This document shows, in pieces, positions 33,795 to 61,349 of a DNA stretch of 64,000 nt; the stretch's first letter is position 1; the number at the start of each line of letters is the position of its first letter. Made by a program: the position numbers and the translations under genes. The notes under the pieces were generated by a model. The model saw nothing but the letters and a program-made list of their open reading frames with translations. It was not told the DNA's origin and made no database searches. Source of the DNA: Parapedobacter koreensis (lineage in GTDB: Bacteria > Bacteroidota > Bacteroidia > Sphingobacteriales > Sphingobacteriaceae); contig NZ_FNZR01000001.1 of the NCBI RefSeq assembly GCF_900109365.1, forward strand, positions 310,001 to 374,000, written 5' to 3'.

Positions 33795-35231
33795 ATGAAT
33801 ACATTTTCGATTAACATATTCTTTTCGTTTTGCCTTGCCGCATCGCTGTTCATCACGTCCTGCAGAGCGCCCCAAGAAGGTGTGCAGGCAGGTGCAGCGT
33901 TGCCCGAATCGTACCGCAATGCCCCCCTATCATCGGTTGATACTATCGATACCGCAGGCATCGCCTATCTTCCCAGAACGGACTATTTCAGTGACAGCAC
34001 CCTGCTGGCCTTGTTGGACACTGCCATCGCACGCAATAACGATTTGCAGCTGGCCGTGAAAAACATCGAAGTTGCCAACCAGCTTTTGGCACAGGCGAAG
34101 CTGGCCTATCTGCCATCCGTAGCGTTGGTGGCGGTAGGCAGCACCACCCGCCCGTCAAACAACAGCCTAAATGGACTCAGCCTGAATCAATTCTTGGGCA
34201 ACAGACATATTGAGGACTATAATGCTGCGGTATCTTTTTCCTGGGAGCTGGATATCTGGGGAAAAATCCGCAATCAAAAAGCGGCGGCACTTGCTTCCTA
34301 CTTACAGACCGAGGAAGCCAAGAAAGCCATCGAGACCCAATTGGTTACCAATGTGGCTTATGCCTACTACAATTTGCTGGCACTGCGAGCGCAATTAGCT
34401 ATTGCTCAGCGCAGTCTTACCCTCAACGACACTACGTTGAACCTCATTAAGCTCCAATACGAAGTAGGTGAAGCCACCCTATTGGCTTTGGAGCAAGCCG
34501 AAGCGCAACGACTGAGTGCAGCAACACTGATTCCCTTATATGAGCAGGAGATCAATATACAAGAAAACGCATTGAGCATTCTCATGGGCAGGGTACCAGA
34601 GGCTGTATCCTCTGGGGCACATCTCGCGGATATTGCCATTCCCGATCACATATCTGCCGGTATTCCCTCCGTCCTGCTGAGCAGGCGGCCCGATGTCCGT
34701 TCTGCGGAATTAGGTGTACGGATAGCAGATGCCTACGTGCGCCAAGCACGAGCTAGCATGTATCCTTCATTGACCATTACCGCCCAGGGTGGTGTCAATT
34801 CGTTTACCGCAAGCAACTGGTTTACCATGCCAGCGTCGCTTTTCGGATCCGTTGCCGGCGGGCTTACACAACCCATTTTTCAAAATCGGCGGTTAAAAAC
34901 CGCCTATGAGGTGTCGCGCATCGAACGGGAAAAATCCGTTATTCAGTTTCGTCAATCCATGCTGGTAGCTGTTGGCGAAGTGGCTGATGCACTCATCAAA
35001 ATCGAGAAGCTGAAAGCGCGCAGTATCCTCACAGCAGAAAAAGTAGTCCGGCTCCGCAATGCCGTGAACAATGCCAACGTATTATACACAAATGGCGCCG
35101 CTAATTACCTCGAAGTAATCACAGCACAAAACAACATGCTCCAAAGTGAGCTCGAACTTGCAGATGTCAAGCGATTGCATCTCGGGGCATTAGCCGATCT
35201 GTATCGTGCCGTTGGCGGTGGCTGGCAGTAA
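33795..35231 (+). CDS. Outer membrane efflux channel lipoprotein (OprM/NodT type)
   Basis: The 478-residue TolC-family protein has a lipoprotein signal with cysteine in FITSCRAP. It shows the duplicated alpha-helical barrel: ELDIWGKIRNQKAAALASYL in the first half and SRRPDVRSAELGVRIADAYV in the second. It starts 2 bp after the pump stop and completes the tripartite efflux system. Confidence 0.94.
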   Translation: MNTFSINIFFSFCLAASLFITSCRAPQEGVQAGAALPESYRNAPLSSVDTIDTAGIAYLPRTDYFSDSTLLALLDTAIARNNDLQLAVKNIEVANQLLAQAKLAYLPSVALVAVGSTTRPSNNSLNGLSLNQFLGNRHIEDYNAAVSFSWELDIWGKIRNQKAAALASYLQTEEAKKAIETQLVTNVAYAYYNLLALRAQLAIAQRSLTLNDTTLNLIKLQYEVGEATLLALEQAEAQRLSAATLIPLYEQEINIQENALSILMGRVPEAVSSGAHLADIAIPDHISAGIPSVLLSRRPDVRSAELGVRIADAYVRQARASMYPSLTITAQGGVNSFTASNWFTMPASLFGSVAGGLTQPIFQNRRLKTAYEVSRIEREKSVIQFRQSMLVAVGEVADALIKIEKLKARSILTAEKVVRLRNAVNNANVLYTNGAANYLEVITAQNNMLQSELELADVKRLHLGALADLYRAVGGGWQ

Positions 35232-35280
35232 CCCTATTGCTGATAATGTAGGGGTAGTCGCAAAAAATCTGTTATTTTTT

Positions 35281-35310
35281 TTGGAAGGAATGGAAATACT
35301 CCTATCTTTG
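35281..35310 (+). promoter_or_regulatory. Promoter of tRNA-Glu
   Basis: TTGG (35281-35284), 18 bases, then TATCTTTG (35303-35310): an excellent Bacteroidota promoter 41 bases before the tRNA. It lies on the chromosomal side, outside the integrated element. Confidence 0.75.
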
Positions 35311-35351
35311 CAGACCGAAAAAACAATAGGGTTTTTCGGGGCGATTAAAAA

Positions 35352-35423
35352 GGCCCGTTCGTCTAGGGGTTAGGACGCAAGATTTTCATTCTTGAAACAG
35401 GGGTTCGATTCCCCTACGGGCTA
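35352..35423 (+). tRNA. tRNA-Glu (anticodon TTC)
   Basis: The 72 bases fold into a full cloverleaf. The acceptor GGCCCGT pairs with ACGGGCT (one G-U pair), discriminator A is at 35423, the anticodon stem is CAAGA/TCTTG, the loop TTTTCAT holds TTC at 35385-35387, and the T-arm is GGGG TTCGATT CCCC. CCA is not encoded. The gene is intact although it is the integration site of the element to the right, whose recombinase gene ends inside it. Confidence 0.97.
35386..35423. other. Probable ICE attachment region in the tRNA-Glu 3' half
   Basis: The recombinase frame crosses this segment and stops in the anticodon loop, so the junction of element and chromosome should lie in or next to it. No second copy of this sequence was found elsewhere in the window, so the exact core cannot be defined. 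Confidence 0.55.
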
Positions 35424-36969
35424 CTTTAGGGGAAAAGTCTAAAATACTGGATTTTTCCCCTTTTTTTATGCCGTTTAAAGTCCTGTTTATCAGCAAAATA
35501 ACTTCAAGTGCTTCATTAGGTCGAGGGGTTCGATGTTGCTCTCCATTGAAAGTTACGAAATCCGGATAAAGGGATGCCACTAATTTACGCTTCTCATGCG
35601 GCTCTGCATTGTAATACCGTTGCTGCACGTTCATAAACTTAGTAACAACCCTATCCAAAAGGACATCCAGTGTTTTCATGGTCTGCGTCTTGGCTGGCAA
35701 TTCGGCAAGTCTGTCTTCTAATTCCCGAACATCCGCGCGACATTCTGTCTTGATGATTTTGAAATCTTCTGCGTCTATTTCATCTTGCATCAACCGTTGC
35801 CTCGCTTTGGCTATCATCGCTTCCTTTTCTTCTATCTGTCTGCTAATATCCCGACGGTCATCCCATTCCACCTCATTTTGGGACTGGAAAACATCCTTTA
35901 CAACCAACTTGAACAGTTCACCAGTTTCAGGACGCAATGAATATTGCATCACTTCCCTTTCAAAATAGTTGTTTACCACATCCGCTTTAAATCTGAATTT
36001 GCATTCATTGCATGAGCAATGGTAGTAATAATAACGTCCTCCATGTCTTCCCTTTGACCCACTTCCTGTTAGCATCCGTGTACATTGTGGGCACCGTATA
36101 ACTCCCCTTAATACGAGCGTTTGTTCAGACGCTTTAATTTTTGTGGTTTTTGGCCGTCTTTTTCCGTTCAGCACATCCTGCACTCTATAAAATAACGTCT
36201 TGTTGATTAGCGGTTCGTGCTGGCCATCCACTATATCCATTTCTTCATTTTTGTATTGTGGTACGATAATAAGTCCACAGTAAACAGGATTCCTTATCAG
36301 CTTCCAGAAGTTGTTGCGTTCGCACTTTAACCCCTTTTCGTTTGCTTCCCTACGTATCTGTTCTGCGGGCTGCACACCTTTGGCAAGTTCTTCAAAAACC
36401 CATTTCATAATTTCTGCCTCGCCGGGTTTGGGCGTGATATACTTCCGCTCTCCATCGGGCGTAATCCTGTTGACATAGCCTTTAGGCGCTGCTCCCATCC
36501 ATCGCCCCTGTTTCCTTGCTCGTCGCATTCCATCAAGTACATTGAGCCCCCGCCGTAAATTCTCTGCTTCGGGAATTGATAGGTACACGGCAAGCATAAC
36601 AGCGCTTTCAGGAACTCCAAAGTCAATCGGTTGGTCAATCGCATCGGCACTTACATACAGGCCGCGTAGGATGCCTATCATGGCATAGGCTGCCTCGACG
36701 CTGCGGCTGAACCTATCCCACTTCACAAACAGTACTTTTACTTCCTCTTTACTTTTCGTCTTCCCACGTTTTTTCAGTATGGATAAGAGTCTTTTCCATG
36801 CTGGTCTATTGAAATTTTTGGCTGAATGATCCTCACGGTAAATGTCCACAATTTCCAAACCGTGAAAATCACAGTAATTCTTCAACCGCTCTTCCTGTTC
36901 AGGCAACGAATAGCCCTTCTTTTTCTGTTCATCCGTGCTTACACGGATGTACAAATACACTTTTTTCAT
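35386..36969 (-). CDS. Large serine recombinase (site-specific integrase)
   Basis: The 527-residue protein has a resolvase catalytic domain (1-150) with nucleophile S11 in YIRVSTDEQ, a recombinase domain (about 160-270; RNPVYCGLIIVPQ), a zinc ribbon (C293, C296, C318, C323) and a coiled-coil tail. It would integrate and excise the element through double-strand cleavage with a two-base crossover. Its last 12 codons (RRGIEPLFQE and neighbours) are antisense to tRNA-Glu; the TGA overlaps the anticodon. The tRNA terminator also lies inside the gene. CTnDOT relatives usually use a tyrosine integrase instead. Confidence 0.93.
   Translation of the reverse strand: MKKVYLYIRVSTDEQKKKGYSLPEQEERLKNYCDFHGLEIVDIYREDHSAKNFNRPAWKRLLSILKKRGKTKSKEEVKVLFVKWDRFSRSVEAAYAMIGILRGLYVSADAIDQPIDFGVPESAVMLAVYLSIPEAENLRRGLNVLDGMRRARKQGRWMGAAPKGYVNRITPDGERKYITPKPGEAEIMKWVFEELAKGVQPAEQIRREANEKGLKCERNNFWKLIRNPVYCGLIIVPQYKNEEMDIVDGQHEPLINKTLFYRVQDVLNGKRRPKTTKIKASEQTLVLRGVIRCPQCTRMLTGSGSKGRHGGRYYYYHCSCNECKFRFKADVVNNYFEREVMQYSLRPETGELFKLVVKDVFQSQNEVEWDDRRDISRQIEEKEAMIAKARQRLMQDEIDAEDFKIIKTECRADVRELEDRLAELPAKTQTMKTLDVLLDRVVTKFMNVQQRYYNAEPHEKRKLVASLYPDFVTFNGEQHRTPRPNEALEVILLINRTLNGIKKGEKSSILDFSPKVARRGIEPLFQE
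35428..35467 (+). terminator. tRNA-Glu terminator, inside the recombinase gene
   Basis: AGGGGAAAA (35428-35436) pairs with TTTTCCCCT (35453-35461), followed by seven T. It ends the tRNA transcript and overlaps the recombinase C-terminal codons on the other strand. Confidence 0.8.
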
Positions 36970-36971
36970 TT

Positions 36972-36985
36972 CACAAAATTTTGTG
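36972..36985. promoter_or_regulatory. Perfect 14-bp palindrome at the recombinase start
   Basis: CACAAAATTTTGTG ends two bases before the recombinase ATG (36967-36969). Its position fits an operator controlling recombinase expression. Confidence 0.6.
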
Positions 36986-37006
36986 TTAAAAAACTAAAGA
37001 ATTGCC

Positions 37007-37039
37007 TTTGGAAAATCTTTGGAAAATCTTTGGAAAATC
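37007..37039. repeat. Three perfect 11-bp tandem repeats before the recombinase gene
   Basis: TTTGGAAAATC occurs at 37007, 37018 and 37029 without mismatch. The 11-bp phase puts each copy on the same helix face. It lies between the recombinase and the small upstream gene, where a promoter or an accessory recombination site would be. Confidence 0.85.
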
Positions 37040-37040
37040 A

Positions 37041-37211
37041 TCAATTTTCATCTTCAGAAAGGTATTCCTTGACCACTAATTTAGCCAAAATATACATGAA
37101 ATCCAAGATTTTTTTCGCTTGATTTTCATCAACTTGCAAGCCGTTTTTATGCAAAATTTGCATTGCCCGCTCGGGTGAAACGTTCCGTTTTTCGAAGTGT
37201 TTGCCATTCAT
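37041..37211 (-). CDS. Small conserved ICE protein (56 aa)
   Basis: The frame encodes MNGKHFEKRNVSPERAMQIL... ending in YLSEDEN. The pattern SPERAMQILHKNGLQVDENQ followed by AKKILDFMYILAKLVVKEYL is typical of a tiny family found beside Bacteroidota mobile elements and often mislabelled as a PTS subunit. It is a predicted two-helix protein, perhaps DNA-binding or an excision factor. It precedes the recombinase by 71 bp on the same strand. Confidence 0.7.
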   Translation of the reverse strand: MNGKHFEKRNVSPERAMQILHKNGLQVDENQAKKILDFMYILAKLVVKEYLSEDEN

Positions 37212-37256
37212 CCGTTTGCCCTGTTTTAATTACAATAGTGGGCAGACCAGCTCGGA

Positions 37257-44210: not shown

Positions 44211-45335
44211 TTATCGTTGGTTATCGTCGCGCAGGAGCAGGTCATATCCTGCTTTCGTGTTGACTTTGGCTTGCCGCACCCTGCGGTTGAAAAGCCCCTT
44301 TGCGGCATTCACCCCTGCCGTTGCGGCCTGTGCAGCAAGTGATGGGTCAAATGACATTAGCTGCATGCCCTGTATGGCATTGTTACTTCCGTCCGTGACC
44401 GCGTCGCGGGTCAGTGCGGTGGATGCCTTCAAGCCCGGTATACCATCCAAATCGTATGCGGTAAGCGATACCGGAAGGATGGAATTGCCATGCCGTATTG
44501 TCCGCACGGATATGGTGAGCCGTTCGCCGCTTATTGCGCATATACCATAGGCAAAGCTGTTAGCAGGGATAAGCCTGCCGTTGATGTACACGCTGTCGAG
44601 CAGCCGTATTTGGATGGATGAGCCGTTTATCACCTCCTGGTCGCGGTGGATAGCCGCGCGTATGGCATTGTCGGGCAGGCTGTCACCTGCAAGCGTGACC
44701 GGATAGACGCTTTCCCTGTTGGCAAGGGACTGCTCCCGTAGTTTATCCTGTACCCTTTCGGGGTGCTGGATGTCCAAAATCCTTTCGAGCATTCCATTGA
44801 GTTGTTCCATTTCGGGGTCTTCGGCTGGGTCACTCGAATTTAGCCGTTCCATCATCTTTTCAAGCCTTTCGATGTCCTGCTGCGTGTCGGGCATCTGTGC
44901 GGATATCGTCCCCGATGCGGTAATCGGAATGGCACGTGTCTGTTGCGGTGCCTGCTCCGGCGTTTCTACAGGTCTGTAAAGCTCGTCTTCGAGCATCGCA
45001 AGTTTTTGCATTACCTGTTCTTCCTGCGGGTCTGTGAATCCTTCGGACAGCGATTCGGCCACCGCCCTGCGACTTTGTTCGTCGCGGATGCGTTTCATCG
45101 AATCGGCTTTTGCCTGTTCGTATAGGTCGAGCTTGGTGCGCGGCGTTTCCTTCCGGAAATTTGCACCCGGCAGTGTGGTGTTGATACCTTTTGAGGTAGC
45201 ATCTATTGGCTGCGGTGTCCCCTTACCTCCTCCGAGGGCATGGAATGCAAGTGCCGCAAATGGTAGTACCAAAAGCGGTACGGCAAGCAGGAATCTGCGT
45301 TGCTTCTCTTTCTGTGTTCTGTTGTTCGTTTCCAT
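44211..45335 (-). CDS. traM: Conjugative transfer protein TraM
   Basis: The 374-residue protein has one N-terminal membrane helix (FLLAVPLLVLPFAALAFHAL) followed by the family signature GGGKGTPQ and KGINTTLPGANFRKE. Then come a disordered helical stretch (QDIERLEKMMERLNSSDPAE) and a C-terminal beta domain (LLDSVYINGRLIPANSFAYG). TraM of CTnDOT-type elements is a VirB10-like spanning component of the mating channel. Confidence 0.9.
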   Translation of the reverse strand: METNNRTQKEKQRRFLLAVPLLVLPFAALAFHALGGGKGTPQPIDATSKGINTTLPGANFRKETPRTKLDLYEQAKADSMKRIRDEQSRRAVAESLSEGFTDPQEEQVMQKLAMLEDELYRPVETPEQAPQQTRAIPITASGTISAQMPDTQQDIERLEKMMERLNSSDPAEDPEMEQLNGMLERILDIQHPERVQDKLREQSLANRESVYPVTLAGDSLPDNAIRAAIHRDQEVINGSSIQIRLLDSVYINGRLIPANSFAYGICAISGERLTISVRTIRHGNSILPVSLTAYDLDGIPGLKASTALTRDAVTDGSNNAIQGMQLMSFDPSLAAQAATAGVNAAKGLFNRRVRQAKVNTKAGYDLLLRDDNQR

Positions 45336-45368
45336 TGTATTGTATTGAATATTGAATCTTATTTCGCT

Positions 45369-45590
45369 TTAAAGCAGGTTATCAAGGATGAGGTATATGG
45401 AATAAGCCGCCATTGCAATGATGGCCACGGCGAATGCGGTGACCTGCGCACGTCTATCCAGTTTGGCAAATGCCCTGTTTAACCTATCGGATAGTTTAGC
45501 CTGTACGCTGTTCACTGACTTGGCTATACCGCGTGCAAGCCGCTCCGTGGCATCGTTATCCCATTCCCGTTTTTTGCGATTCTTTGCCAT
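45369..45590 (-). CDS. TraL-like small membrane protein
   Basis: The 73-residue protein has a basic N-terminus (MAKNRKKREWDND), a helix and one C-terminal membrane segment (AQVTAFAVAIIAMAAYSIYL). Place (between traK and traM), size and layout fit the TraL/DUF3989 proteins of Bacteroidota elements. Its N-terminus is longer than usual. It overlaps neither neighbour; the gap to traK is 3 bp. Confidence 0.65.
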   Translation of the reverse strand: MAKNRKKREWDNDATERLARGIAKSVNSVQAKLSDRLNRAFAKLDRRAQVTAFAVAIIAMAAYSIYLILDNLL

Positions 45591-45593
45591 TGG

Positions 45594-46205
45594 TTATCTT
45601 GATTGGATGTCGGCATTTTCAAGTGTTTCCCAACGTTGGATAAGGAAGCCATGCGGGTTGTTGTCCGTCCGTTTTACGTTCCTCAATGTTCCGGTGGTGG
45701 TGAGCGTACGCATGAGGGTGCCGCTTGAGCGGATAAGCCGTTGTGTGGCGTGGCAGGTAAAGCCGTAGGGCTCGCTCCGCATGTCCAGTCGGATGCTGTC
45801 CACGGTGATGCGCTGGCTGATGTTGCCGGAGATGAGGCCCGAATAATAGCCCTTTTCGCGAAGGTTGTCGTATTCGCGTTTGGCGCTTTCGTCCGCAAGG
45901 TAGAGGGCCTTGGTGATGTTGGCCGTAATTGCCTTGTCGTCGGGGTCGAGTGAGAAAAACAGCTGGTGGAAATTCGTTACATGCTGCCTTGCTTCCACTT
46001 CGGGGTCATCCTTGCTGCCAGCAATCTTTGCTTGCAGGGGTCTGCCGTCCACTACTACCCAAATGCTTGAAAGTATTGTTTGAACTGCCTCATGGCTTTT
46101 GTAGATGACAAAACCGCATAAAAGGATGATGCATACATTGGATATGATGCTGAATGTTTTGATGTGCTTGAATGCTGTGTCGATATTCCTGAATTGCTTG
46201 AACAT
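45594..46205 (-). CDS. traK: Conjugative transfer protein TraK (VirB8-like)
   Basis: From ATG 46205 the protein has 203 residues beginning MFKQFRNIDTAFKHIKTFS. One N-terminal membrane helix (IISNVCIILLCGFVIY) is followed by a periplasmic domain with ARQHVTNFHQLFFSLDPDDK, which is diagnostic of TraK of CTnDOT-class elements. It would be a VirB8-like assembly factor of the type IV secretion system. Confidence 0.92.
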   Translation of the reverse strand: MFKQFRNIDTAFKHIKTFSIISNVCIILLCGFVIYKSHEAVQTILSSIWVVVDGRPLQAKIAGSKDDPEVEARQHVTNFHQLFFSLDPDDKAITANITKALYLADESAKREYDNLREKGYYSGLISGNISQRITVDSIRLDMRSEPYGFTCHATQRLIRSSGTLMRTLTTTGTLRNVKRTDNNPHGFLIQRWETLENADIQSR

Positions 46206-46226
46206 GGTGTATTGCATTTAATTCGT

Positions 46227-47444
46227 CTATTCTCCTTTTATCCTGCCGCTCTGGTGGTCATTGGTGAAATAATCGCTTCTTCCCGCCCCGGCCATGTGGT
46301 TGCGCATGGTACGGGCATCGTCACCGAACACGTCTTTAGCCATATCGCCCCCATCGGTTAGCTTTTGGCTGATTGTATCGCCGGGGTTTACTATCAGCGT
46401 ATTGACGCGCTGCATGAGCGAGTTGGCACCGGAAGCATGCACGATGTAGTTGGCCACGCTTGGTACGGAGAAATACCCCAATATGCCGATGATAAGGTAG
46501 ATGAGGTAAGCCGTGTCCGTCGCGCTGAACATCGTATCTCCCTCCTGCCCGATTTCGCTTATGTCGAGTATGAGCATCTTTTCCTGTATCTTGCCGATGA
46601 TGCTCCCGAACAGGTTGCAGACCGGAAGCCACAGGTACACATTGATGTAGCGGCCTATCCATACGGTTAGCGTATGCTGTAATCCATCGAATACACTGAA
46701 AGCGAATACGAGTGGCCCAAGTATGCCCAGCACAAGCATGAAAAACGTACGGATGGCGTTGATGCAAAGCGATGCTGCGGCAAAAACGACCTGTAGTATT
46801 TCGCTCAGCCATTGTTTCACGTTGTTTCTGAAAGCGTAGGACTGCTTGTCCATCCAAAATTTGATGTCATTGCCGATGGCCTTGTCCCACCAAGTTTCAT
46901 CACCACCTGTGCCGTCGTCGGGATAGGTATATTTGTGCCATTTTTCTATATCGCCTTTTCCGCTCTCTCCCACGTACATCTGCCAATGGCTGGAATTTTT
47001 GACCGCTTCTTCTTTCTGTTTCAGCAGCGTGGCAATAGCCCTGTCGGAATCGTTGACCATGCCCAACGTGACATCGGAGATGGGTTTAAGTGTCCCGTTA
47101 AGTACCGCCAATACGACCGGATAGAAAAGCACGGCAAGGCCGATGGCAAACGGACGTAGCAGGGGATAAAAGTCGATGGCTTCGGCGGCGGCGATTTGTC
47201 GCCACACGCGGGACGCGATATACCAAAGGGCGGCAAATCCGGCAATCCCACGGCCCACACCAATCAGGCGTGAGCAAAGGGGCAGCATGTCGGAGTAAAC
47301 TGTATCGAGGACGCTTTGCAGGTCACGGATTTCGGCGGCGGACTGGCCGAATGCAGGGACGGGGGCAAGGGCAAGCGCGGCAAGGAAGCAAAACAGGGGT
47401 GCAAGGGCGCAAGCAGGCCGCATGCCGGAACGGGCTTTAATCAT
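46227..47444 (-). CDS. traJ: Conjugative transfer protein TraJ (VirB6-like)
   Basis: The open frame reaches 47741, but its first 99 codons overlap the upstream gene. ATG 47444 lies 4 bases after that gene's stop and begins a signal sequence (MIKARSGMRPACALAPLF... FGQS), giving 405 residues. Six or more membrane helices follow, with the TraJ-type sequence ADAIDFYPLLRPFAIGLA in modified form (AEAIDFYPLLRP). TraJ is the polytopic inner membrane channel subunit. The C-terminal tail is hydrophilic. Confidence 0.9.
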   Translation of the reverse strand: MIKARSGMRPACALAPLFCFLAALALAPVPAFGQSAAEIRDLQSVLDTVYSDMLPLCSRLIGVGRGIAGFAALWYIASRVWRQIAAAEAIDFYPLLRPFAIGLAVLFYPVVLAVLNGTLKPISDVTLGMVNDSDRAIATLLKQKEEAVKNSSHWQMYVGESGKGDIEKWHKYTYPDDGTGGDETWWDKAIGNDIKFWMDKQSYAFRNNVKQWLSEILQVVFAAASLCINAIRTFFMLVLGILGPLVFAFSVFDGLQHTLTVWIGRYINVYLWLPVCNLFGSIIGKIQEKMLILDISEIGQEGDTMFSATDTAYLIYLIIGILGYFSVPSVANYIVHASGANSLMQRVNTLIVNPGDTISQKLTDGGDMAKDVFGDDARTMRNHMAGAGRSDYFTNDHQSGRIKGE

Positions 47445-47448
47445 GTGC

Positions 47449-48087
47449 TTAGTTGAGTTCATAAAGTTCTTTGAGTGTCTGTGTTTCCCTTTTTTCTTTT
47501 TCGCGTTGCAGGTCGAGCAGGCTGCCTTCGCGGTTAAAGTACCGTAGGAATTGAAGTTTGTCCTGCACATCGTCGAATATGCGGTCGATGGCCTGTAGTC
47601 GCTCGTCATCAGACATCCGGAGTTGGGATGCCGTGGTAACCATGATGAGCTCATCAAGGCTGGCGACGCTCCGGTCAAACAGTTGCTTGTATATCCTGCC
47701 GAAATAGGCAAGCTCCGCTTCCGTGAAACTGCCCGATGCACGGAAGCGGTCGTAGGTCGATTTGTATTCCTTTACAATGTCTTTCTGCATTTTGATGATA
47801 TCCGCGACGCGGTAATATTTTTTAATTTCGGGATTGACCGCCATCAGCCCATCGAGGAACAGGTTATGCAGGTTGAAATTACCTTTGGAAATGTCACGCA
47901 CGGCATTGTAGCCTCCGGTGAGGATTTCATAGCCGCGCTTCATGTCTGACAGGATACCCTTTAGCTGGCTGAGTTTTTCTACGTTCAGGAGCAGTTGCAC
48001 CACTTCATCCGTTTGTGCCTGGCTCTTGGTCGGTAGCAAGAAAGCGGTGCAAAGGCCAAGAGCTATGGCGATGCTAATCTTCTTCAT
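47449..48087 (-). CDS. Exported coiled-coil transfer protein, TraI-like paralogue 3
   Basis: The 212-residue protein has a signal peptide ending in KSQAQ and is otherwise helical. It shares the ending MSDDERLQAIDRIFDDVQDK and LLDLQREKEKRETQTLKELY with the two genes upstream. Databases often label such genes TerB-family; no tellurite-related evidence is seen here. It probably acts in the periplasmic part of the mating apparatus. It overlaps the next gene by 14 bp. Confidence 0.8.
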   Translation of the reverse strand: MKKISIAIALGLCTAFLLPTKSQAQTDEVVQLLLNVEKLSQLKGILSDMKRGYEILTGGYNAVRDISKGNFNLHNLFLDGLMAVNPEIKKYYRVADIIKMQKDIVKEYKSTYDRFRASGSFTEAELAYFGRIYKQLFDRSVASLDELIMVTTASQLRMSDDERLQAIDRIFDDVQDKLQFLRYFNREGSLLDLQREKEKRETQTLKELYELN

Positions 48088-48763
48088 GTTTGAAAATTCT
48101 TTTGAGTTTGAAAAGCTGTTCGGTTTCGCGTTTATGCATCAATGCAAGGAGATGCACATCTCCGGTGTAGTATTGGGTGAATGCCGCTTTGTCACGCATG
48201 GCCGCATATACCTTTTCAAGCCGTTTGATACGCTCATCGTCATCCATTTCCAGCTTGCCGGAAAGCACGATATCGAGCAGTTCTGAAAGGTCGATTGCAC
48301 ATTCTTCCAGTACCTTGTTTTTTACGCTGCGGATGTAGTCGGAGTGTTGGCTTCCATTTTCCAAACCGTTGAAAGCGCCGATGATGGCGATTTGCAGGGC
48401 AACTATTTCGGCAATGCGGACATCATCCCTTATGGCGGGATTTACTGCCGAAAGCGATGCAAAGAAAGCGGTGTGCAACCCAAATTCCCCGTCACTGAAT
48501 CCACGGACAAGGTTAAGCCCCGACGATACCACATCGTATCCTCGTTTCAGCACGGTGCCATAACCTTTCAGGGCGATGATCTGCTCGGCAAGGTATTGTT
48601 TCTGTGTCTTCTTCTGCCTGAACCATTCGGCAAATGTCTGTGCTTCCGCTTTGGTAGCGATGGCGGTTGAGATGGCCGTGATCGTGGCAAAGGCAAGCAA
48701 TGCGTTTGCCCTGCGTCCGATGGCGGTCGCTTTTTTAGCTGCCCCGTTAATCATCGATTCCAT
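48074..48763 (-). CDS. Exported coiled-coil transfer protein, TraI-like paralogue 2
   Basis: The 229-residue protein starts with MESMINGAAKKATAIGRRAN and a hydrophobic signal ending near KAEA. The core EWFRQKKTQKQYLAEQIIAL and the tail MDDDERIKRLEKVYAAMRDK match the neighbours. Helices dominate. It is translationally coupled with both neighbours (overlaps of 14 and 17 bp), which implies balanced production for one assembly. Confidence 0.8.
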   Translation of the reverse strand: MESMINGAAKKATAIGRRANALLAFATITAISTAIATKAEAQTFAEWFRQKKTQKQYLAEQIIALKGYGTVLKRGYDVVSSGLNLVRGFSDGEFGLHTAFFASLSAVNPAIRDDVRIAEIVALQIAIIGAFNGLENGSQHSDYIRSVKNKVLEECAIDLSELLDIVLSGKLEMDDDERIKRLEKVYAAMRDKAAFTQYYTGDVHLLALMHKRETEQLFKLKRIFKHEED

Positions 48764-49439
48764 AGATTTCCTTTAACCGTTGTGTTTCGTCCGTTGACTT
48801 GGCCCGTTGGACGGATAGCAGGGCATTCTCCCTATTGAATTGTTTGAGGTCGGTGTGGTTTTCTTCCATCCGGTTGCTTGCTTCCTTAATGATTTCAAGC
48901 CGTGCCGCATCGGACATCTGTGTTTTGAAACTGTTGACCACAAGAATAATCTGGTCTATATTTTCGACGCTTGCTTCGAGTATGCCCGTATAGACCTTTG
49001 CGATGTAGGCAAGTTCCTCCGGTGTGAAATGCTCGTCTTGCTGGAAAAGCTGCCATGCGGTGCGGTATTCTTCCAGTATGGCCGCTTGTTTTTCTGTCAT
49101 TTCCTTTATCCGGTGGTAATAGGTAAGTACCGATTTGACTTTCCACAATTCATCGTAATAATTTTTGTACAAGTTGCGCTGACGGTCCGTCCAATCGGCT
49201 ATTTCAGTGAGTTTGAGTTTGGAAAGCTGGTTTTCCAGTGTCTTTTGGGCATTCTGTAGCCATATCGTCTGGTTTTGCAGCCGTTGGATTTTGAGGTCAA
49301 TGGCTTTGATGACTTTCTTGATACCCGCCTTTATCACCTCGGCAATGGCAAGCTGCGCGGTCGCGCCCTCCGGCAGTGATACGAATAGTGTCATTGCGCT
49401 GATGGGCAGGATGAGCATGTATGTCTTTAGCTTTTTCAT
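48747..49439 (-). CDS. traI: Conjugative transfer protein TraI (DUF4141-like)
   Basis: The 230-residue protein has a signal peptide (to about GATA) and a long coiled-coil region (IKAIDLKIQRLQNQTIWLQN) followed by EHFTPEELAYIAKVYTGILE and MSDAARLEIIKEA. This is the usual TraI of Sphingobacteriales-type elements, corresponding in place to the VirB5-like pilus tip position after the ATPase gene. Gap to traG is 18 bp. Confidence 0.85.
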   Translation of the reverse strand: MKKLKTYMLILPISAMTLFVSLPEGATAQLAIAEVIKAGIKKVIKAIDLKIQRLQNQTIWLQNAQKTLENQLSKLKLTEIADWTDRQRNLYKNYYDELWKVKSVLTYYHRIKEMTEKQAAILEEYRTAWQLFQQDEHFTPEELAYIAKVYTGILEASVENIDQIILVVNSFKTQMSDAARLEIIKEASNRMEENHTDLKQFNRENALLSVQRAKSTDETQRLKEIYGIDD

Positions 49440-49457
49440 GGTATTGTGTATTTGGTG

Positions 49458-51914
49458 TTATGCACTTTTGCTTCTGATGTCATTGGCAAGCTCCGCTATG
49501 CCTTTGCGGATACTGCCGTACTTTGCCGCATATTCCTGCACTTTCACTTTTTCGCTTTCCTCGGTCGTGTAGGTGAGGTATTCTTCAAGTGAGACTTCTG
49601 TGCGGTACACTTTGCCGGGCGGGAAGATGTAGACTTCTTTGTAGATCCTTTTAGGGTCGTTGGCTCTGTTCATGGACAGTATCAATGCTTTCTGCCGTTC
49701 ATTCAGCCCAAGCATTTCCTGCAATTGGTCGAATCGGTTTTCGTATTTGGATTGGTCTAAGAGAATCTTACAGTCAGCGTTGTTGATGATGGCCTGTTTC
49801 ACTATCGGCGATGATATGATGTCTTCGACTTCCTGTGTCACGACGATGGCCTCTCCGTAGAATTTTCTGACCGTCTTGAACAGGTATTTGATGTATTCTG
49901 CCATGCCCTCTTTGGCAATGGCTTTCCAGCATTCTTCAATGAGGATGGCTTTGCGTACCCCTTTCAGCTTCCGCATCTTGGAGATAAATACGTCCATGAT
50001 GATGAGCGTGACCGCCGGAAAAAGGATGGGGTGATCTTTGATGGCATCCAACTCAAAGACGATAAAACGTTGGTGGAGCAGGTCGAGGTTTTCGGTGGCA
50101 TTCAGTAAATAGTCAAATTCACCACCTTTATAGTAAGGGTTGAGTACGTACAGGAAGTTGGAAATATCGAAGTCTTTCTCCTTGACATTACCGTCTTCCA
50201 ATACTTTCATGTACTCGCTCTTTAGGTATTCATAGAAGGTGTTGAAGCAGGGGAAGATGGTTTTGTCTTTTTCAAGGTGGACAAAATATCCGGTGAGCGC
50301 ATTGGAGAGTCCGACATATTCCGAACGTGTAAACCGCTCGTCTTCTTTCTTCCAAAGTGCCAATAACAACGTTTTCAGGCTTTCCTTTTTTTCCGTATCC
50401 AGTACATCTCCCTCGGTCAGATAGAAGGGATTGAACTTAATGGGGTTGGCTTCACTGTACGTGAAATAGTAGCCATCCACAAGGTCGCATAGCCCTTTGT
50501 AGGAGTGGCCCACATCCAGCAATACCACGTGCGTCCCCTGCTCGTAGTAAGACCTGACCATGTGGTTGGTGAAGAACGATTTTCCTGAACCCGAAGGCCC
50601 TAATATGAATTTATTTCGATTGGTCGTAAGGCCCCGTTTCATCGGCTCATCACTGATATCCACGTGCAGGGGCTTGCCGTGCAGCCTGTCGCCCAGCCGG
50701 ATGCCGAACGGAGAAATGGATGTACGGTAGCCAGTCTCTTTGTTAAGGAAACAGGTGGTTTGTTCCAAGAAGCTGTCAAACGTGTCATTCATGGGGAAAT
50801 CCCCTTCGCCTCCCGGTATTCCTGCAAACCAGACCTGCGGTGCGCCGTCCCTTTCCTGCTTAGCTACGGCATCCATCTGTGCCATTGCCGACGACACCTT
50901 GTTTCGTAATTCGTTTGGGTCTTCGTTGTCGTTGCACCATGCCAGTACGTTGAAGTGCGCCTTCACCGGAAGCCGTTGCTCCGATATGGCTTCGTTCAGA
51001 AAATCGTTGGTGGCATCCCTTGCGATGGCGTTTTCACGGGAATAGGCCGAAAGTGATTGCAGGCGTAGCCGCTTGGCTTCCATCCTTTTCAGGGTCTTGG
51101 GGGCATCGTCAACGAAAATATATTGGTTGTATACATGGTTGCAGTCGAGCAGCATTCCCAACGGGCTTGCGAATCCCACGGAGAATTTGCTGCGGTCTGT
51201 ACTGTATCGGTCGTGGTTTATGCGCGGGCCGCACAGGGCTGGTAATTCTTCGGCATCGGAAAGTGTGAACAGCATGGAGCGTTTGTCGCCGATGAGCATG
51301 CCATCCTTTAAATGGATGTCGCGGATGGTCGGTTGCTCGCCTTCATCCAAAAGGAAGCAGTAGCGTTCGATGATACCTGCTTTGTTGGCTGTGCCTGCCA
51401 GTGCATCGTCATCCAACCGTTTGAGGTTCACGAATCCGCTATCGGTAAGGATGCGCTGGAATTGGCCCGCGCTGTCCATGAAATCCATGAATGGCCTTGT
51501 ACTTACGGTCTGATGCGGTACGATGGATTTACGTAGCAGCCCTGTGTATGCGGAGCTTGCGGGCTTGTGTTCTTTTGCCTGTTTGGTGAGATAGATGTAG
51601 CAGCTATGGGATAAGTAAGGCCGCTCGTTGAAGAAACGTTCGCTGGACAATGAAAGGAACGCTTCCCCTGCCTTTTCGAAGTCCGCGCGGTACTTCCTGT
51701 CCGTAAACCAATCCTGTTTGTGGAAGATACTGTGCGGGGGCAGCAGCCGGATAGCACGCACCCACGCTTGGTGAAATGCTTCGTAATCCCGCTCACCCAT
51801 TGTGAAAATTTCCGGCAGTATGGCTTCGAAGGCTACCGTGATATCACCCTGTACGGATAGGATGGCATCGTTTTCAACTTTGTAGATGGGAAATATTTTC
51901 TCGATTTCCTTCAT
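49458..51914 (-). CDS. traG: Conjugation ATPase TraG (VirB4-like)
   Basis: The 818-residue cytoplasmic ATPase drives pilus and channel assembly. Walker A GPSGSGKS is at 439-446 and Walker B AILIEE at 656-661. The N-terminal TraG/VirB4 domain shows MKEIEKIFPIYKVENDAILS and the motif HMVRSYYEQGTHVVLLDVGH follows the P-loop. Length fits the family. It is not the coupling protein, which is missing from the window. Confidence 0.96.
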   Translation of the reverse strand: MKEIEKIFPIYKVENDAILSVQGDITVAFEAILPEIFTMGERDYEAFHQAWVRAIRLLPPHSIFHKQDWFTDRKYRADFEKAGEAFLSLSSERFFNERPYLSHSCYIYLTKQAKEHKPASSAYTGLLRKSIVPHQTVSTRPFMDFMDSAGQFQRILTDSGFVNLKRLDDDALAGTANKAGIIERYCFLLDEGEQPTIRDIHLKDGMLIGDKRSMLFTLSDAEELPALCGPRINHDRYSTDRSKFSVGFASPLGMLLDCNHVYNQYIFVDDAPKTLKRMEAKRLRLQSLSAYSRENAIARDATNDFLNEAISEQRLPVKAHFNVLAWCNDNEDPNELRNKVSSAMAQMDAVAKQERDGAPQVWFAGIPGGEGDFPMNDTFDSFLEQTTCFLNKETGYRTSISPFGIRLGDRLHGKPLHVDISDEPMKRGLTTNRNKFILGPSGSGKSFFTNHMVRSYYEQGTHVVLLDVGHSYKGLCDLVDGYYFTYSEANPIKFNPFYLTEGDVLDTEKKESLKTLLLALWKKEDERFTRSEYVGLSNALTGYFVHLEKDKTIFPCFNTFYEYLKSEYMKVLEDGNVKEKDFDISNFLYVLNPYYKGGEFDYLLNATENLDLLHQRFIVFELDAIKDHPILFPAVTLIIMDVFISKMRKLKGVRKAILIEECWKAIAKEGMAEYIKYLFKTVRKFYGEAIVVTQEVEDIISSPIVKQAIINNADCKILLDQSKYENRFDQLQEMLGLNERQKALILSMNRANDPKRIYKEVYIFPPGKVYRTEVSLEEYLTYTTEESEKVKVQEYAAKYGSIRKGIAELANDIRSKSA

Positions 51915-56564: not shown

Positions 56565-57149
56565 ATGAAGACGCTTGGGGAACTGCTTTCCGATATTGGT
56601 TGTGATGCTGCTGTATACGAGCAGCTTTTGCCATTATTCAGGTTACAGCGCATGCCCCGTGGCATGGATTTGTCCCTTCGGCGTGGTTCATGGGATAATC
56701 TCGGTATTATATCGTCGGGATACCTTAGCGGCTATTTCCACCACAGTTTTGAAGACCATACACTTTGTGTCTTGGGGCCGGGCAAAACCCTACCCCCGCT
56801 TAATTTCTCCGGCGGTTTTCCACCTGATATTTTTTTGGAATCAGTCACCCGCGTTGAGTTGTATGTCCTTGACATCAATGCTGTCATATCACTTGGGCCT
56901 GAAATGCTGAGTGCTTCGTTATCGTTGCTGATGAAGTCTTATGACTGCATCATTGAGGAATTGATATTTTGGGCATCGGTTTCGCATTTGCCACGTGGGG
57001 AGTCGAGGTTTGGGGGTGTGGTGGGCCATGATGAGCTATTGGTCGGTGGCGTTCCCAATGACGTGCTTGCTTCTGCGACTCGCCTGAGTCTCCGGCATTT
57101 TATGCGCATCAAGAACGGTGAGAAAAAGGTGTTTCGCGAAAAAGCCTAA
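56565..57149 (+). CDS. Crp/Fnr-like transcription regulator
   Basis: From ATG 56565 the protein has 194 residues. The N-terminal part fits a cyclic-nucleotide-binding beta-roll (LRRGSWDNLGIISSGYLSGY, LGPGKTLPPLNF), followed by the long dimerisation helix. A short C-terminal helix-turn-helix remains (VGGVPNDVLASATRLSLRHF). It lacks clear ligand-contact residues, as is usual for the Bacteroidota branch. It may act on the GTGGCA motifs nearby. Confidence 0.7.
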   Translation: MKTLGELLSDIGCDAAVYEQLLPLFRLQRMPRGMDLSLRRGSWDNLGIISSGYLSGYFHHSFEDHTLCVLGPGKTLPPLNFSGGFPPDIFLESVTRVELYVLDINAVISLGPEMLSASLSLLMKSYDCIIEELIFWASVSHLPRGESRFGGVVGHDELLVGGVPNDVLASATRLSLRHFMRIKNGEKKVFREKA

Positions 57150-57229
57150 TCCATTTATTTTCCTCTCCGTTTTTCATCTGTTTAATTTTCAGTATAAATA
57201 TTCCTTTTTATGCCTGATCTATCTGGTAT

Positions 57230-57256
57230 TACATGCTTCCAGCATGCATTTTTTTT
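57230..57256 (+). terminator. Terminator of the Crp-like gene
   Basis: CATGCT (57232-57237) and AGCATG (57241-57246) form a short stem, followed by a run of eight T at 57249-57256. Confidence 0.6.
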
Positions 57257-57268
57257 CAATTTTGGCCC

Positions 57269-57320
57269 AAAAATGTGCCATATATGTCATACCTGCGGAT
57301 TGAATATCAACCTAATTTTG
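57269..57320 (+). promoter_or_regulatory. Promoter and activator-like site of the MauE-like gene
   Basis: AAAAATGTGCCA (57269-57280) lies 32 bases upstream of TAATTTTG (57313-57320), a perfect -7 box. The motif would be near -45, where activators bind; a good TTTG element is missing, as expected for an activated promoter. Confidence 0.5.
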
Positions 57321-57351
57321 TGATGTAAATCAAAGGGTAATTGAAAAGACA

Positions 57352-57864
57352 ATGAAAAAGGGAACGTGGTTGAATATTATATCGGGCTTGATTGCCATAA
57401 TGTTTTTTTATGCGGTCTATGTTCAGCTTTTTAATAGTGAACAGAAACTAAGTGAAAAGTTAAAGAATGTTTTTTCGGAAAACGCTGCTGGCATCTTGGC
57501 TTGGCTTATTCCCGCCATCCTAATTATCACCATAATTTTACTGGTTTACAAACACACAAGGTTGATTGGTTTTTGGGCCTCATTCAGTTTGTTGGTGGTT
57601 TTCAATGTTTACTTAATCCTGGTTATGGATAGGGTAGCTGTCGATGGGCAACTCAACTACGGGGGAATTTTAGACAATGTTGGTTTAGGCTGGCAAGTGG
57701 CACTCAATATCCTGTTTATTGCATTGGCAATACTTGGAATTTGGATTGAAAGATACGGGGCAGCTAAGAACCCCTCAAAACGAATGAGACACCTATGGTT
57801 TAACAAAAATTCTGATAAAAATTTAGAGGAAAAGAATTTGAATAAAAACGTAATGCAGGGTTAA
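57352..57864 (+). CDS. MauE/DoxX-like membrane protein without the usual cysteine motif
   Basis: The 170-residue protein has four membrane helices, and its pattern (LNIISGLIAIMFFYAVYVQL, ILAWLIPAILIITIILLVYK, LIGFWASFSLLVVFNVYLIL) fits MauE/DoxX redox-associated proteins. Where relatives carry a CSCGG-type motif, this protein has LNYGGIL, with no cysteine at all. The C-terminus is basic. It precedes a small secreted protein, with TlpA/SusD/SusC on the other strand. Confidence 0.7.
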   Translation: MKKGTWLNIISGLIAIMFFYAVYVQLFNSEQKLSEKLKNVFSENAAGILAWLIPAILIITIILLVYKHTRLIGFWASFSLLVVFNVYLILVMDRVAVDGQLNYGGILDNVGLGWQVALNILFIALAILGIWIERYGAAKNPSKRMRHLWFNKNSDKNLEEKNLNKNVMQG

Positions 57865-57974
57865 AGACCTCCCCTGCGCTGTGAGAAACAATTATAAATA
57901 TCCGTGATGATTAGGTCTCAAGGTCGGAACGGAAAAAACCGAAGTATTTTATACTTCAATTAATAAAAAATGTT

Positions 57975-58325
57975 ATGACTAAGTTATTAAAGAAAGTGAA
58001 TTTGTTCGCTTTGGTTAGCATGCTTACATTAGGACTTATTTTGTCTGCTTTTTCACCGGTGAAAAAAGTCGTCCCTGTTAAAAAAGTAGAGCCTTCTGAA
58101 AAAGCTGCGTTTCAGGAAACCCGTGGCATATTGGAAGACTATAGCTCAACTCATTGGCGGGTTACGCCGTCAGCCGTTTCAACGAGTAGCTGTAATGGAA
58201 CCGCAAGCTTTCCGTGTACAGGTACAGTTAATACTGCCGCTGTGACTGAGCCTGAAGCCGGAGTATTTATCGTCCCTAAGAGTCAGGTCACCAACACAGA
58301 TGGTGTTGGCCCATTTATCCCTTGA
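57975..58325 (+). CDS. Small exported two-cysteine protein (DUF6520-like)
   Basis: The 116-residue protein has a signal-like N-terminus (KVNLFALVSMLTLGLILSAF), a short lysine/valine repeat (VKKVVPVKKVEP) and a polar domain with only two cysteines, C73 and C81 (SSCNGTASFPCTGT), probably a disulfide. It resembles small proteins found beside MauE and TlpA genes in Bacteroidota. A hairpin (GAAGTAT/ATACTTC, 57941-57957) stands 17 bases before the start. A terminator follows. Confidence 0.7.
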   Translation: MTKLLKKVNLFALVSMLTLGLILSAFSPVKKVVPVKKVEPSEKAAFQETRGILEDYSSTHWRVTPSAVSTSSCNGTASFPCTGTVNTAAVTEPEAGVFIVPKSQVTNTDGVGPFIP

Positions 58326-58353
58326 GCATAAGGCGATAAAGTTGCATAGTAAT

Positions 58354-58400
58354 GTGGCAAGAAGATGTTGAAGACCTTAACTTCCTCTTGCCACTTTTTA
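58354..58400 (+). terminator. Terminator of the small exported protein gene
   Basis: GTGGCAAGA (58354-58362) and TCTTGCCAC (58386-58394) form a perfect 9-bp stem followed by TTTTT. The tlpA-like gene converges from the other side. Confidence 0.8.
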
Positions 58401-58411
58401 ATTAGAGAATA

Positions 58412-59926
58412 TTATTCTACGGAATTAAGAATTGATATCAATTGGTCTTTGGGCGGTCGGTCATTGTAAATCCCTACTAAATTGCCTTTGCTATCTATAA
58501 TCAAAATCGTTGGATATATATTTATATTGTAGTACTTAACAAACTCGTGCAATGTGCCTTCTCCATTTGTAAAAACATTGATTGTTTCTTTTGAAGAATA
58601 CAAGGCACTATTTACACTCTTAATCCAAGTATTGACGTTTTTATCAATAGATACTGATAGGAATTTGATTTTATCATTGTACCTAAACGACTGTTCGACA
58701 TGGGATAATGTATTTTGAAAATACGTGATACACCCACGGCAACCTGTAAACCAAAAATCAATCAACAATACTTGACCTTTTAAATCACCCAATTCAATTT
58801 CATGCCCTTCCAAATCGGTAAATTTAAAGGGGAATGCTGATGATCCTTTTAAGAATTTTAATGAATAATTTTTTAAAATCCCTTTCAAACCATCATCTGT
58901 GACGCCTGAGTAAATCTCGTCGTAAAAAGCAAATTGATTTTCAAATTTATCTCGGTATGTCAGTAACAGTAGGCAAAGCAATCGTTCGCGTTCTATAGCG
59001 GAATACTTATTTGAAATGCTATCGTATAATGATTCCGGCTTTTTAAGTCCTTGAATAAGTAATAGGTTTTTATGGTATTCGATTAGGCTCTCCAAGTAAA
59101 ATGGGGAATGAAATTGGATGTTCTGTAGCAGCAAGTCGTCATTGAGTGGTGAAAATCCTTCAGTGAAGATTTCTTTCAACTTGGGAAAACCGTTTTCCAT
59201 AGTTGAATCTGAAAGGACAAGCCATTTAAATTCCCAATACTTATCCAATTCTTGTTTTCCATAAATATCGGATTTCAATAGCGAATAAGCAAGCGTTGAA
59301 AGCTCATGTCGGTAGTCGTATAAAATTTCGAGACAAGCATCTTTTATTTTATCATGGCTATTCCCTTTGAAAAACCCATAATCTGATGTGAGTATACCTG
59401 AATCCTCTGAAACGTATGAGAGACTATCCATCCTAAATCGGCACTGATATTTTGCGAATCCCCTACCTTTAAATTCAGGCGTGTACTCGCTAAAGTTTTT
59501 AAATCCTGAAAAGTATTCACGGTTTCTTTTTGCATAGGCTTTCGGAAGTAAAGCATCTCTTTTTTTCATGGTGATCGTGATGTCGTCTCCATGTTCAAAT
59601 AGATAATAATAGAGCAGGCTTTTATCAGTACCCTGCTCCTTTTTACTTAAACAAAAATAGCCGAAATCGTTTTGGGGATTTATTGTAAACTTGAAACTTC
59701 CTGAATCATTTAGCGCAAAACTTTCCTCGTATGGTAAGTATTCAGCAACGGATACTCCTAAAAGACTGTTCCAATAGCGAAGAACGAAAGTGTCCTGTAA
59801 GTACTCCTTCTCTTCAAAATTTACAGTAATTGTTACACGGTTACTAAAAAGTTCAGTTGAAAATCCTGTTTTTGCCTCAATAGCAAGTATTATCAGTATG
59901 ATGGGAAATAAAGCAAGCTTTGCCAT
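58412..59926 (-). CDS. TlpA-like thioredoxin-fold protein
   Basis: The 504-residue exported protein (signal peptide MAKLALFPIILIILAIEAKT) has a large N-terminal domain without clear homology and a C-terminal thioredoxin domain (about 360-504). Its active site is CRGC at 396-399 in WFTGCRGC, and a cis-proline is seen in IYPTILII. TlpA-like proteins reduce disulfides in the periplasm. Last gene of the susC-susD-tlpA unit. Confidence 0.85.
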   Translation of the reverse strand: MAKLALFPIILIILAIEAKTGFSTELFSNRVTITVNFEEKEYLQDTFVLRYWNSLLGVSVAEYLPYEESFALNDSGSFKFTINPQNDFGYFCLSKKEQGTDKSLLYYYLFEHGDDITITMKKRDALLPKAYAKRNREYFSGFKNFSEYTPEFKGRGFAKYQCRFRMDSLSYVSEDSGILTSDYGFFKGNSHDKIKDACLEILYDYRHELSTLAYSLLKSDIYGKQELDKYWEFKWLVLSDSTMENGFPKLKEIFTEGFSPLNDDLLLQNIQFHSPFYLESLIEYHKNLLLIQGLKKPESLYDSISNKYSAIERERLLCLLLLTYRDKFENQFAFYDEIYSGVTDDGLKGILKNYSLKFLKGSSAFPFKFTDLEGHEIELGDLKGQVLLIDFWFTGCRGCITYFQNTLSHVEQSFRYNDKIKFLSVSIDKNVNTWIKSVNSALYSSKETINVFTNGEGTLHEFVKYYNINIYPTILIIDSKGNLVGIYNDRPPKDQLISILNSVE

Positions 59927-59952
59927 TTTCGACTTATTTAAATAGCTGATGA

Positions 59953-61332: not shown

Positions 61333-61349
61333 CGTTGTGTGAATTGGTA

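Follow-up and report, generated by a model that had tools for sequence, protein, structure and literature searches.

A large serine recombinase gene that runs antisense through a terminator-like hairpin and ends inside the tRNA-Glu gene at the edge of an integrative conjugative element

The window analysed here, a stretch of 64,000 nucleotides, contains what is very probably the attL end of an integrative conjugative element (ICE) of approximately 65 kb, placed in the 3′ half of a tRNA-Glu gene by a large serine recombinase of its own. The recombinase gene lies antisense to the tRNA and ends within it, and on the way there its reading frame passes through the hairpin that would terminate the tRNA. 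The features are as follows, in window positions unless a locus or contig is named:

33795-35231, plus strand: last host gene left of the insertion, a putative outer-membrane efflux protein (by eye from the ORF)
35352-35424, plus strand: tRNA-Glu(TTC), the target gene, intact (ARAGORN); its 5′ part is host-derived and its 3′ part from 35402 is identical in attL and attR
35386-35424, minus strand: last 12 sense codons and TGA of the recombinase (39 nt), antisense to tRNA-Glu
35402-35424, plus strand: attL core, 23 bp, identical to the tRNA-Glu 3′ end
35428-35467, plus strand: terminator-like hairpin of 14 pairs with a T run, antisense to recombinase codons 501-515 or thereabouts
35386-36969, minus strand: large serine recombinase ORF, 527 amino acids (ORF list and Pfam)
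35402-64000, no strand: left part of the ICE of about 65.2 kb, which continues past the window to its right end at G000:C7:410590
44211-51914, minus strand: conjugation genes, among them Pfam TraM, TraJ and TraG P-loop ATPase
G000:C7:410568-410590 (= L005:17569-17591), same contig and strand: second core copy, 65.2 kb off and outside the window
L005:4656-5873: tyrosine recombinase within the ICE, about 12 kb inward from the far end

The sequence-only reading had taken the recombinase frame to run antisense through the terminator and 3′ half of tRNA-Glu and to stop with TGA at 35386-35388, and both ARAGORN and the ORF coordinates agree with this. The stop codon is the complement of T35386, C35387 and A35388, which are the last two anticodon bases and the base that follows them. 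Residues V516 to E527 and the stop fall within the tRNA, so the last 12 codons are indeed set by tRNA sequence, as had been proposed. The 527-residue product ends in VARRGIEPLFQE before the stop; given at greater length the end reads ...SPKVARRGIEPLFQE, then the TGA antisense to bases 35386-35388. What the earlier reading did not contain is that the tRNA terminator is itself recombinase coding sequence and that the arrangement is common to relatives.

The hairpin at 35428-35467 has a folding energy of −19.7 kcal/mol (z −4.2), and none of 200 shuffled sequences was as stable. With its T run (35461-35467) it lies where the intrinsic terminator of tRNA-Glu belongs, between the tRNA and the body of the recombinase gene. 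A consensus terminator scan of 35250-37250 gave two sites against 2.1 expected by shuffling and is no proof by itself; the support for the hairpin as a terminator comes from fold stability and covariation. We infer that it ends tRNA-Glu transcription. This suggests that tRNA transcription should stop inside the last 27 or so codons of the recombinase gene, the opposite of the interference between tRNA transcription and recombinase that had been raised as a possibility. One ORF entering a tRNA gene is weak evidence: in this frame the reverse reading of the conserved T-loop yields G[ILF]EP without any stop. The overlap is not chance, because it recurs in 77 of 104 informative relatives and in a second member of the family in this genome, which ends in tRNA-Lys(CTT) with the C-terminus VTPLRFELRTQ.

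The protein has a Resolvase domain (PF00239, residues 4-157, E 6.3e-22) followed by a Recombinase domain (PF07508, residues 184-268, E 1.9e-14), while a zinc ribbon (PF13408) scores 23.7 bits, just below the cut-off of 25.3. The four cysteines C293, C296, C318 and C323 are invariant in alignment A3. Near the N-terminus R9, V10, S11 and T12 are invariant across 46 aligned sequences, S11 being presumably the catalytic serine. Enzymes of this class recombine at a 2-bp crossover, with a direction under RDF control. Solved relatives by sequence include the TP901-1 integrase (3bvp) and the A118 integrase (4kis, 6dnw); the NCBIfam models CcrB, XisF and CcrC match as well, all far under their cut-offs. 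Large serine recombinases also have a long C-terminal coiled coil; here a structure model with a pTM of only 0.39 places helices from 347 to 467 and its fold stops near residue 505. Residues 506-517, 519-522 and 524-527 have pLDDT values below 50, and the tail is predicted to be disordered.

The 23-bp block at 35402-35424 recurs 65.2 kb away, on which basis we reject an attachment site outside the tRNA. It also bears out, at the level of sequence, the earlier proposal that the site lies within the tRNA and that the recombinase tail therefore belongs to attL and attP. An attP junction to the right of 35467 would place the end of the gene outside the recombination site; the repeat block ends to the left of that point, at 35424. 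Between the two core copies lie a relaxase (PF03432), a coupling protein (T4SS-DNA_transf, PF02534) and genes of the TraG, TraM and TraJ families, and it is on account of these genes that we call the element an ICE.

To the left of the second core there is no tRNA but a conserved arm of approximately 113 bp (attP-left). To its right is a terminator-like sequence that is also found after intact tRNA-Glu genes elsewhere; the match is 90% over 121 bp on contig C12 of this genome, and 83% in G005. It is only at these other places that tRNA-Glu and a similar terminator are uninterrupted; an empty site at the orthologous locus was not found, G004 sharing the left flank and not the right. Immediately left of 35402 the tRNA in attL has GG and the arm in attR has TA, and because the two sites differ there the crossover should lie somewhere in 35402-35424. 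Loci L028, L090, L108, L137 and L141 share, as judged by eye, only the sequence from the T-stem 3′ strand onward, which suggests a crossover near the start of that strand.

The arm is conserved in L005, L023, L153, L160 and L162, where it ends at the same base, and it precedes tRNA-less cores in genomes G007, G022, G067 and G057. In G114 (L165) the arm is unlike the others, and the block starts one base later and is one base shorter. G007 has an orphan core with its arm (L023), yet only distant recombinase matches (best E 7e-36). The sole other Glu-type element delimited at both ends is in G067, where the recombinase core and the orphan core are some 95 kb apart. Exact-core searches in three His-type genomes returned only the copy at the recombinase, and attR searches for the Lys, His, Asp and Met types returned mostly more intact tRNAs, apart from an orphan core at L179 and a partial tRNA at L175.

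Some observations on these flanks stand by themselves. The arm at L005:17456-17568 (G000:C7:410455-410567) holds the repeat CAGTGAGC/T GATT CGGTGAGT, which is duplicated in L023 and is possibly bound by a directionality factor or some accessory protein. In L009, L010, L013, L154, L161, L163 and L169, from two genera (g1 and g15), tRNA-Glu is followed by a similar flank (about acatcttgaagtcaaaacat...), which could be a native terminator or else mark where another recurrent element ends. To the right of attR in G067 (L160) the post-core sequence resembles the recombinase terminator of this family itself, as if an older, decayed element lay there.

To place the overlap among relatives we compiled 120 loci. 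A match at E ≤ 0.001 was present in 188 of 301 sampled genomes of the host's family, not all of the close type, and 30 loci came from this search; a further 80 were named records (the best 80 of at least 578 relatives, with Bacteroidota judged by titles) and 10 were viral contigs. Subtracting 10 duplicates and 6 contig-end loci gave 104 informative loci, with near-identical loci kept. A strict search for T-loop and hairpin missed 25 of the 120, many of which still have the hairpin and acceptor end by eye, and we therefore asked for a tRNA at a fixed offset. An antisense tRNA was found there in 77 of the 104, its 3′ end 133-136 nt past the anchor residue, and we therefore reject the idea of an overlap peculiar to this one genome. 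The recombinase ORF enters the tRNA in all 77, stopping inside it in 56 and running through it in 21, and the tRNAs represent 11 isotypes and 22 anticodons. At the other 27 informative loci an intact tRNA is missing from this position. Some of these loci are truncated or broken; in many the junction is attP-like or rearranged, with hairpin and acceptor end retained.

A tree was calculated by a 'quick' method from the recombinase body without its C-terminus (103 rows, 74 of them labelled; 7 truncated or cut loci excluded by hand, identical rows merged). The target groups are clustered on it, with 40 changes among 12 groups, unlabelled rows counted as one group; shuffling gave a mean of 66.6 changes, and none of 200 shuffles came down to 40. 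Taken singly, the isotypes Glu, Arg, Lys, Leu, His and Pro each cluster (0 of 500 shuffles as low). There is no clustering for Met, with 7 rows, or Val, with 2 (500 of 500 as low). Across the 74 labelled rows the tree requires a minimum of 24 isotype changes.

As a control we used 70 distant serine recombinases from viral contigs, with 22-31% identity, of which 31 stop no more than 80 nt from the edge of their contig and 39 are informative. The T-loop motif was absent from all 31 contig-end loci. Only one of the 39 overlaps a tRNA, and one other (L211) has a GFEP tail without a tRNA. The overlapping case is a recombinase of 25% identity antisense over tRNA-His (L226:11515-11590), its tail is unlike GxEP, and the overlap is perhaps of independent origin.

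The stem of the hairpin covaries among relatives. For alignment A2, 95 of the 120 loci passed a length and T-loop filter; removal of L049, L064, L084 and L130, which did not fit the register, left 74 distinct sequences in a gap-free alignment. All 12 of 12 stem pairs have changed on both sides, and 77.3% of stem cells are paired compared to 61.9% when shuffled (0 of 500 shuffles), figures that are softened by the relatedness of the sequences, as are those of the frame test below. Sliding the register by one base still gives 57.5% or 64.6% pairing, because in the Glu type the stem is shifted by one base. RNAalifold gave no consensus structure and no pairs on the same alignment, which we ascribe to these two stem registers one base apart.

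The same bases are open as coding sequence. From 120 loci we dropped 3 contig-end loci and excluded 14 of the remaining 117 with a hairpin score under 8 (among them the truncated L116 and L140), giving 103 loci, among which 87 hairpin regions were distinct. Not one of the 87 has a stop in the recombinase frame; in the two remaining frames of the strand, stops occur in 76 and 80 of them. In a simulation that preserved the hairpin, using the same columns and keeping the pairs, 34% of sequences had a stop, against 0 of 74 observed. Outside the test set, the truncated L140 has stops in the hairpin region and L041 has one stop just beyond it. The residues conserved here (KKG, LS, V and GxEP) look like products of the T run, the stem and the tRNA, and for that reason selection on the protein is indicated by nothing but the open frame.

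If the end of the gene is also part of the attachment site, excision should give the recombinase a different C-terminus, as the sequence-only reading had predicted. When the right arm is fused in silico to core and gene, the predicted product has 526 residues and ends RRGIEPIGH, so that excision would swap PLFQE for PIGH before the stop, in line with that prediction. A junction of this shape, circular or tandem, is present in G022 (L026/L153); there the conserved arm is joined directly to the serine recombinase gene (L026), which ends RRGIEPAYYQSIYQYFTNFPFPNSPNHSLV. The recombinase genes of L029, L031 and L055 differ by 0-2 nt in 1532, yet they end PLFLE, PLLPE and PLFQE (L029 is the same sequence as L056, from Mucilaginibacter phyllosphaerae, and L055 is from Mucilaginibacter sp. 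L3T2-6). Near-identical recombinases that end differently, following the tRNAs of their hosts, mean that the integrated tails are host-written; they range from about 3 to over 40 residues.

We considered a conserved coding extension in the circular form, on the strength of the arms of L023, L153 and L162, which continue in frame for about 24 further similar residues. The idea fails in L005 (this element), L160 and L165, where the frame stops after 2-4 residues; of the six tails from orphan or attP-like cores, three thus end within a few codons. In a tRNA-Asp array (L044) the recombinase ORF crosses two of three tandem copies and stops before the third, with the AVRTGLEPATSAVTGRHSNQLNYRTK tail repeated twice. 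The attP-like junctions of L051, L117, L119 and L122 include anticodon-arm sequence; a different sort of element, arranged in tandem, may have produced them.

These results can be brought together in a simple scheme. The attP site would lie at the recombinase gene's own 3′ end, and the recombinase would join it to the tRNA. Integration would split the tRNA within its T-arm and the 3′ strand of the acceptor and then restore it, since the element has the tRNA 3′ end in identical form. It would also displace the tRNA's own terminator by 65 kb, which is why the element would bring a replacement. There is no spacer: the replacement terminator and the tRNA 3′ half both lie antisense in the last 27 or so codons of the recombinase. 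While the element is integrated, host DNA supplies at least the four C-terminal residues and the stop codon; excision would fuse the gene to the element's other end. That the serine recombinase catalyses the recombination is likewise our inference.

The overlap might instead be an accident of packing, in which the gene lost its own stop and the ORF drifted into the tRNA, leaving the tail and open frame without meaning. The stop-free T-loop would allow this, and the low-confidence residues after the predicted fold ends near 505, the host-written tails of such variable length and the three of six orphan or attP-like tails that stop early are what it would lead one to expect. An accident does not readily explain a fixed geometry across 77 loci and 22 anticodons, or the lack of stops in 87 distinct hairpin regions when about 34% would be expected per sequence, and among distant serine recombinases the overlap is rare (1 of 39); we consider it rather unlikely. 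It is much less likely still that the element's tyrosine recombinase integrates at the tRNA with the serine recombinase a mere neighbour. Such a gene is present, and direct repeats of this length at tRNA 3′ ends are usual for tyrosine integrases. ICEs of Chryseobacterium relatives are described in part of one report as sitting at tRNA-Glu with a 17-bp repeat that falls within the 23-bp core (PMC12561888). Against this, the tyrosine gene is about 12 kb inside the far end while the serine gene is at the site in 77 loci, tRNA isotypes cluster on the serine recombinase tree, and in L026 the arm is joined directly to the serine recombinase gene.

The C-terminus could also be a switch, the host-written and circular tails differing in activity or stability. 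The frame is open through terminator and core, the tails differ between the two states, the arms of L023, L153 and L162 encode similar extensions, and passages on integration-dependent immunity in mycobacteriophages supply a precedent in repressor genes (PMC8092301). We nevertheless think a switch improbable, given that the L005, L160 and L165 arms stop almost at once, that near-identical enzymes carry different host-written tails and that the tail is predicted to be disordered. A bolder version would have some 80 bp selected at once as coding sequence, tRNA 3′ half, terminator and attP, with the tail registering whether the element is integrated or circular and helping to set direction; this we regard as highly speculative. 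Integration by the element's own serine recombinase, with its attachment site at the end of its gene, is the reading we retain.

The TP901-1 and A118 integrases and the CcrA/B/C and XisF families have Resolvase and Recombinase domains, as does the protein described here. The targets of A118 and TP901-1 are protein genes. In this family, by contrast with those large serine recombinases, the gene's 3′ end overlaps many tRNAs and encodes the att site, the tRNA 3′ half and the terminator. tRNA islands, convergent integrases, overlap of an integrase gene with a protein-gene target, C-termini changed at att sites and ICEs at tRNA-Glu are all known. Passages of a study of tRNA islands describe an 'OC' shape in which the integrase gene is adjacent and convergent to the target tRNA, as here, with a mean intergenic region of about 158 bp in the non-autoregulated class (PMC2951348); in our case the spacing is negative and the terminator is inside the gene. 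ICECleSHZ29-like ICEs of Weeksellaceae, also Bacteroidota, are described as inserted at tRNA-Glu-TTC, with a repeat of 17 bp that lies inside our 23-bp core, or in others at tRNA-Met-CAT, and a circular form was detected by inverse PCR; the passages concerned describe no overlap of gene and tRNA and do not state the integrase family (PMC12561888).

Overlap of a predicted serine recombinase gene with its target is reported in part of an account of JC1-like prophages at rimO, where the integrase gene partly overlaps the target in related prophages; those prophages target a protein gene at its 5′ end, their attP is upstream of the recombinase gene, and the passages involve no tRNA or terminator (PMC9144972). 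As described in part of another report, phages with integration-dependent immunity carry attP in a gene, and the free and integrated C-termini differ; that gene is a repressor and the difference is functional, whereas here the gene is the recombinase itself and the difference is read from its sequence (PMC8092301). The Riemerella 10K island is, in the portion of its description seen, a Bacteroidota island at a tRNA gene with a tyrosine integrase, a 53-bp repeat and tRNA-Arg, compared to the serine enzyme, 23 bp and tRNA-Glu here (PMC6764341). Passages of a review state that the integration sites of IMEs with serine recombinases are specific, and that disruption of dispensable genes has come to light in recent work (PMC5704250). 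We found no report in the open literature of serine recombinase genes that end in their target tRNA or carry its terminator, although the arrangement may have been noticed before.

An arrangement of this kind could let an element take over a tRNA gene harmlessly and without wasted space. The gene of the inserting enzyme would also encode, on its other strand, the repair kit for the tRNA it interrupts, namely the 3′ half and the terminator. Since the target sequence is written into the gene, each change of target should rewrite the recombinase C-terminus, and the isotype changes counted on the tree make this testable. It would also account for the G[ILF]EP tails of such recombinases as antisense tRNA, and relatives at tRNAs with 22 anticodons are a possible set of site-specific integrases for Bacteroidota.

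The interior of the ICE may itself be composite. The tyrosine recombinase gene lies together with a DUF5712 gene at L005:4656-8081, a segment that may be a nested mobile element. In the window at 57001-63962 the GC content drops from approximately 45-53% to 36-42%, and this segment, with a putative SusD-like/SusC-like pair and a thioredoxin-like gene (ORFs by sight), is probably cargo of other origin.
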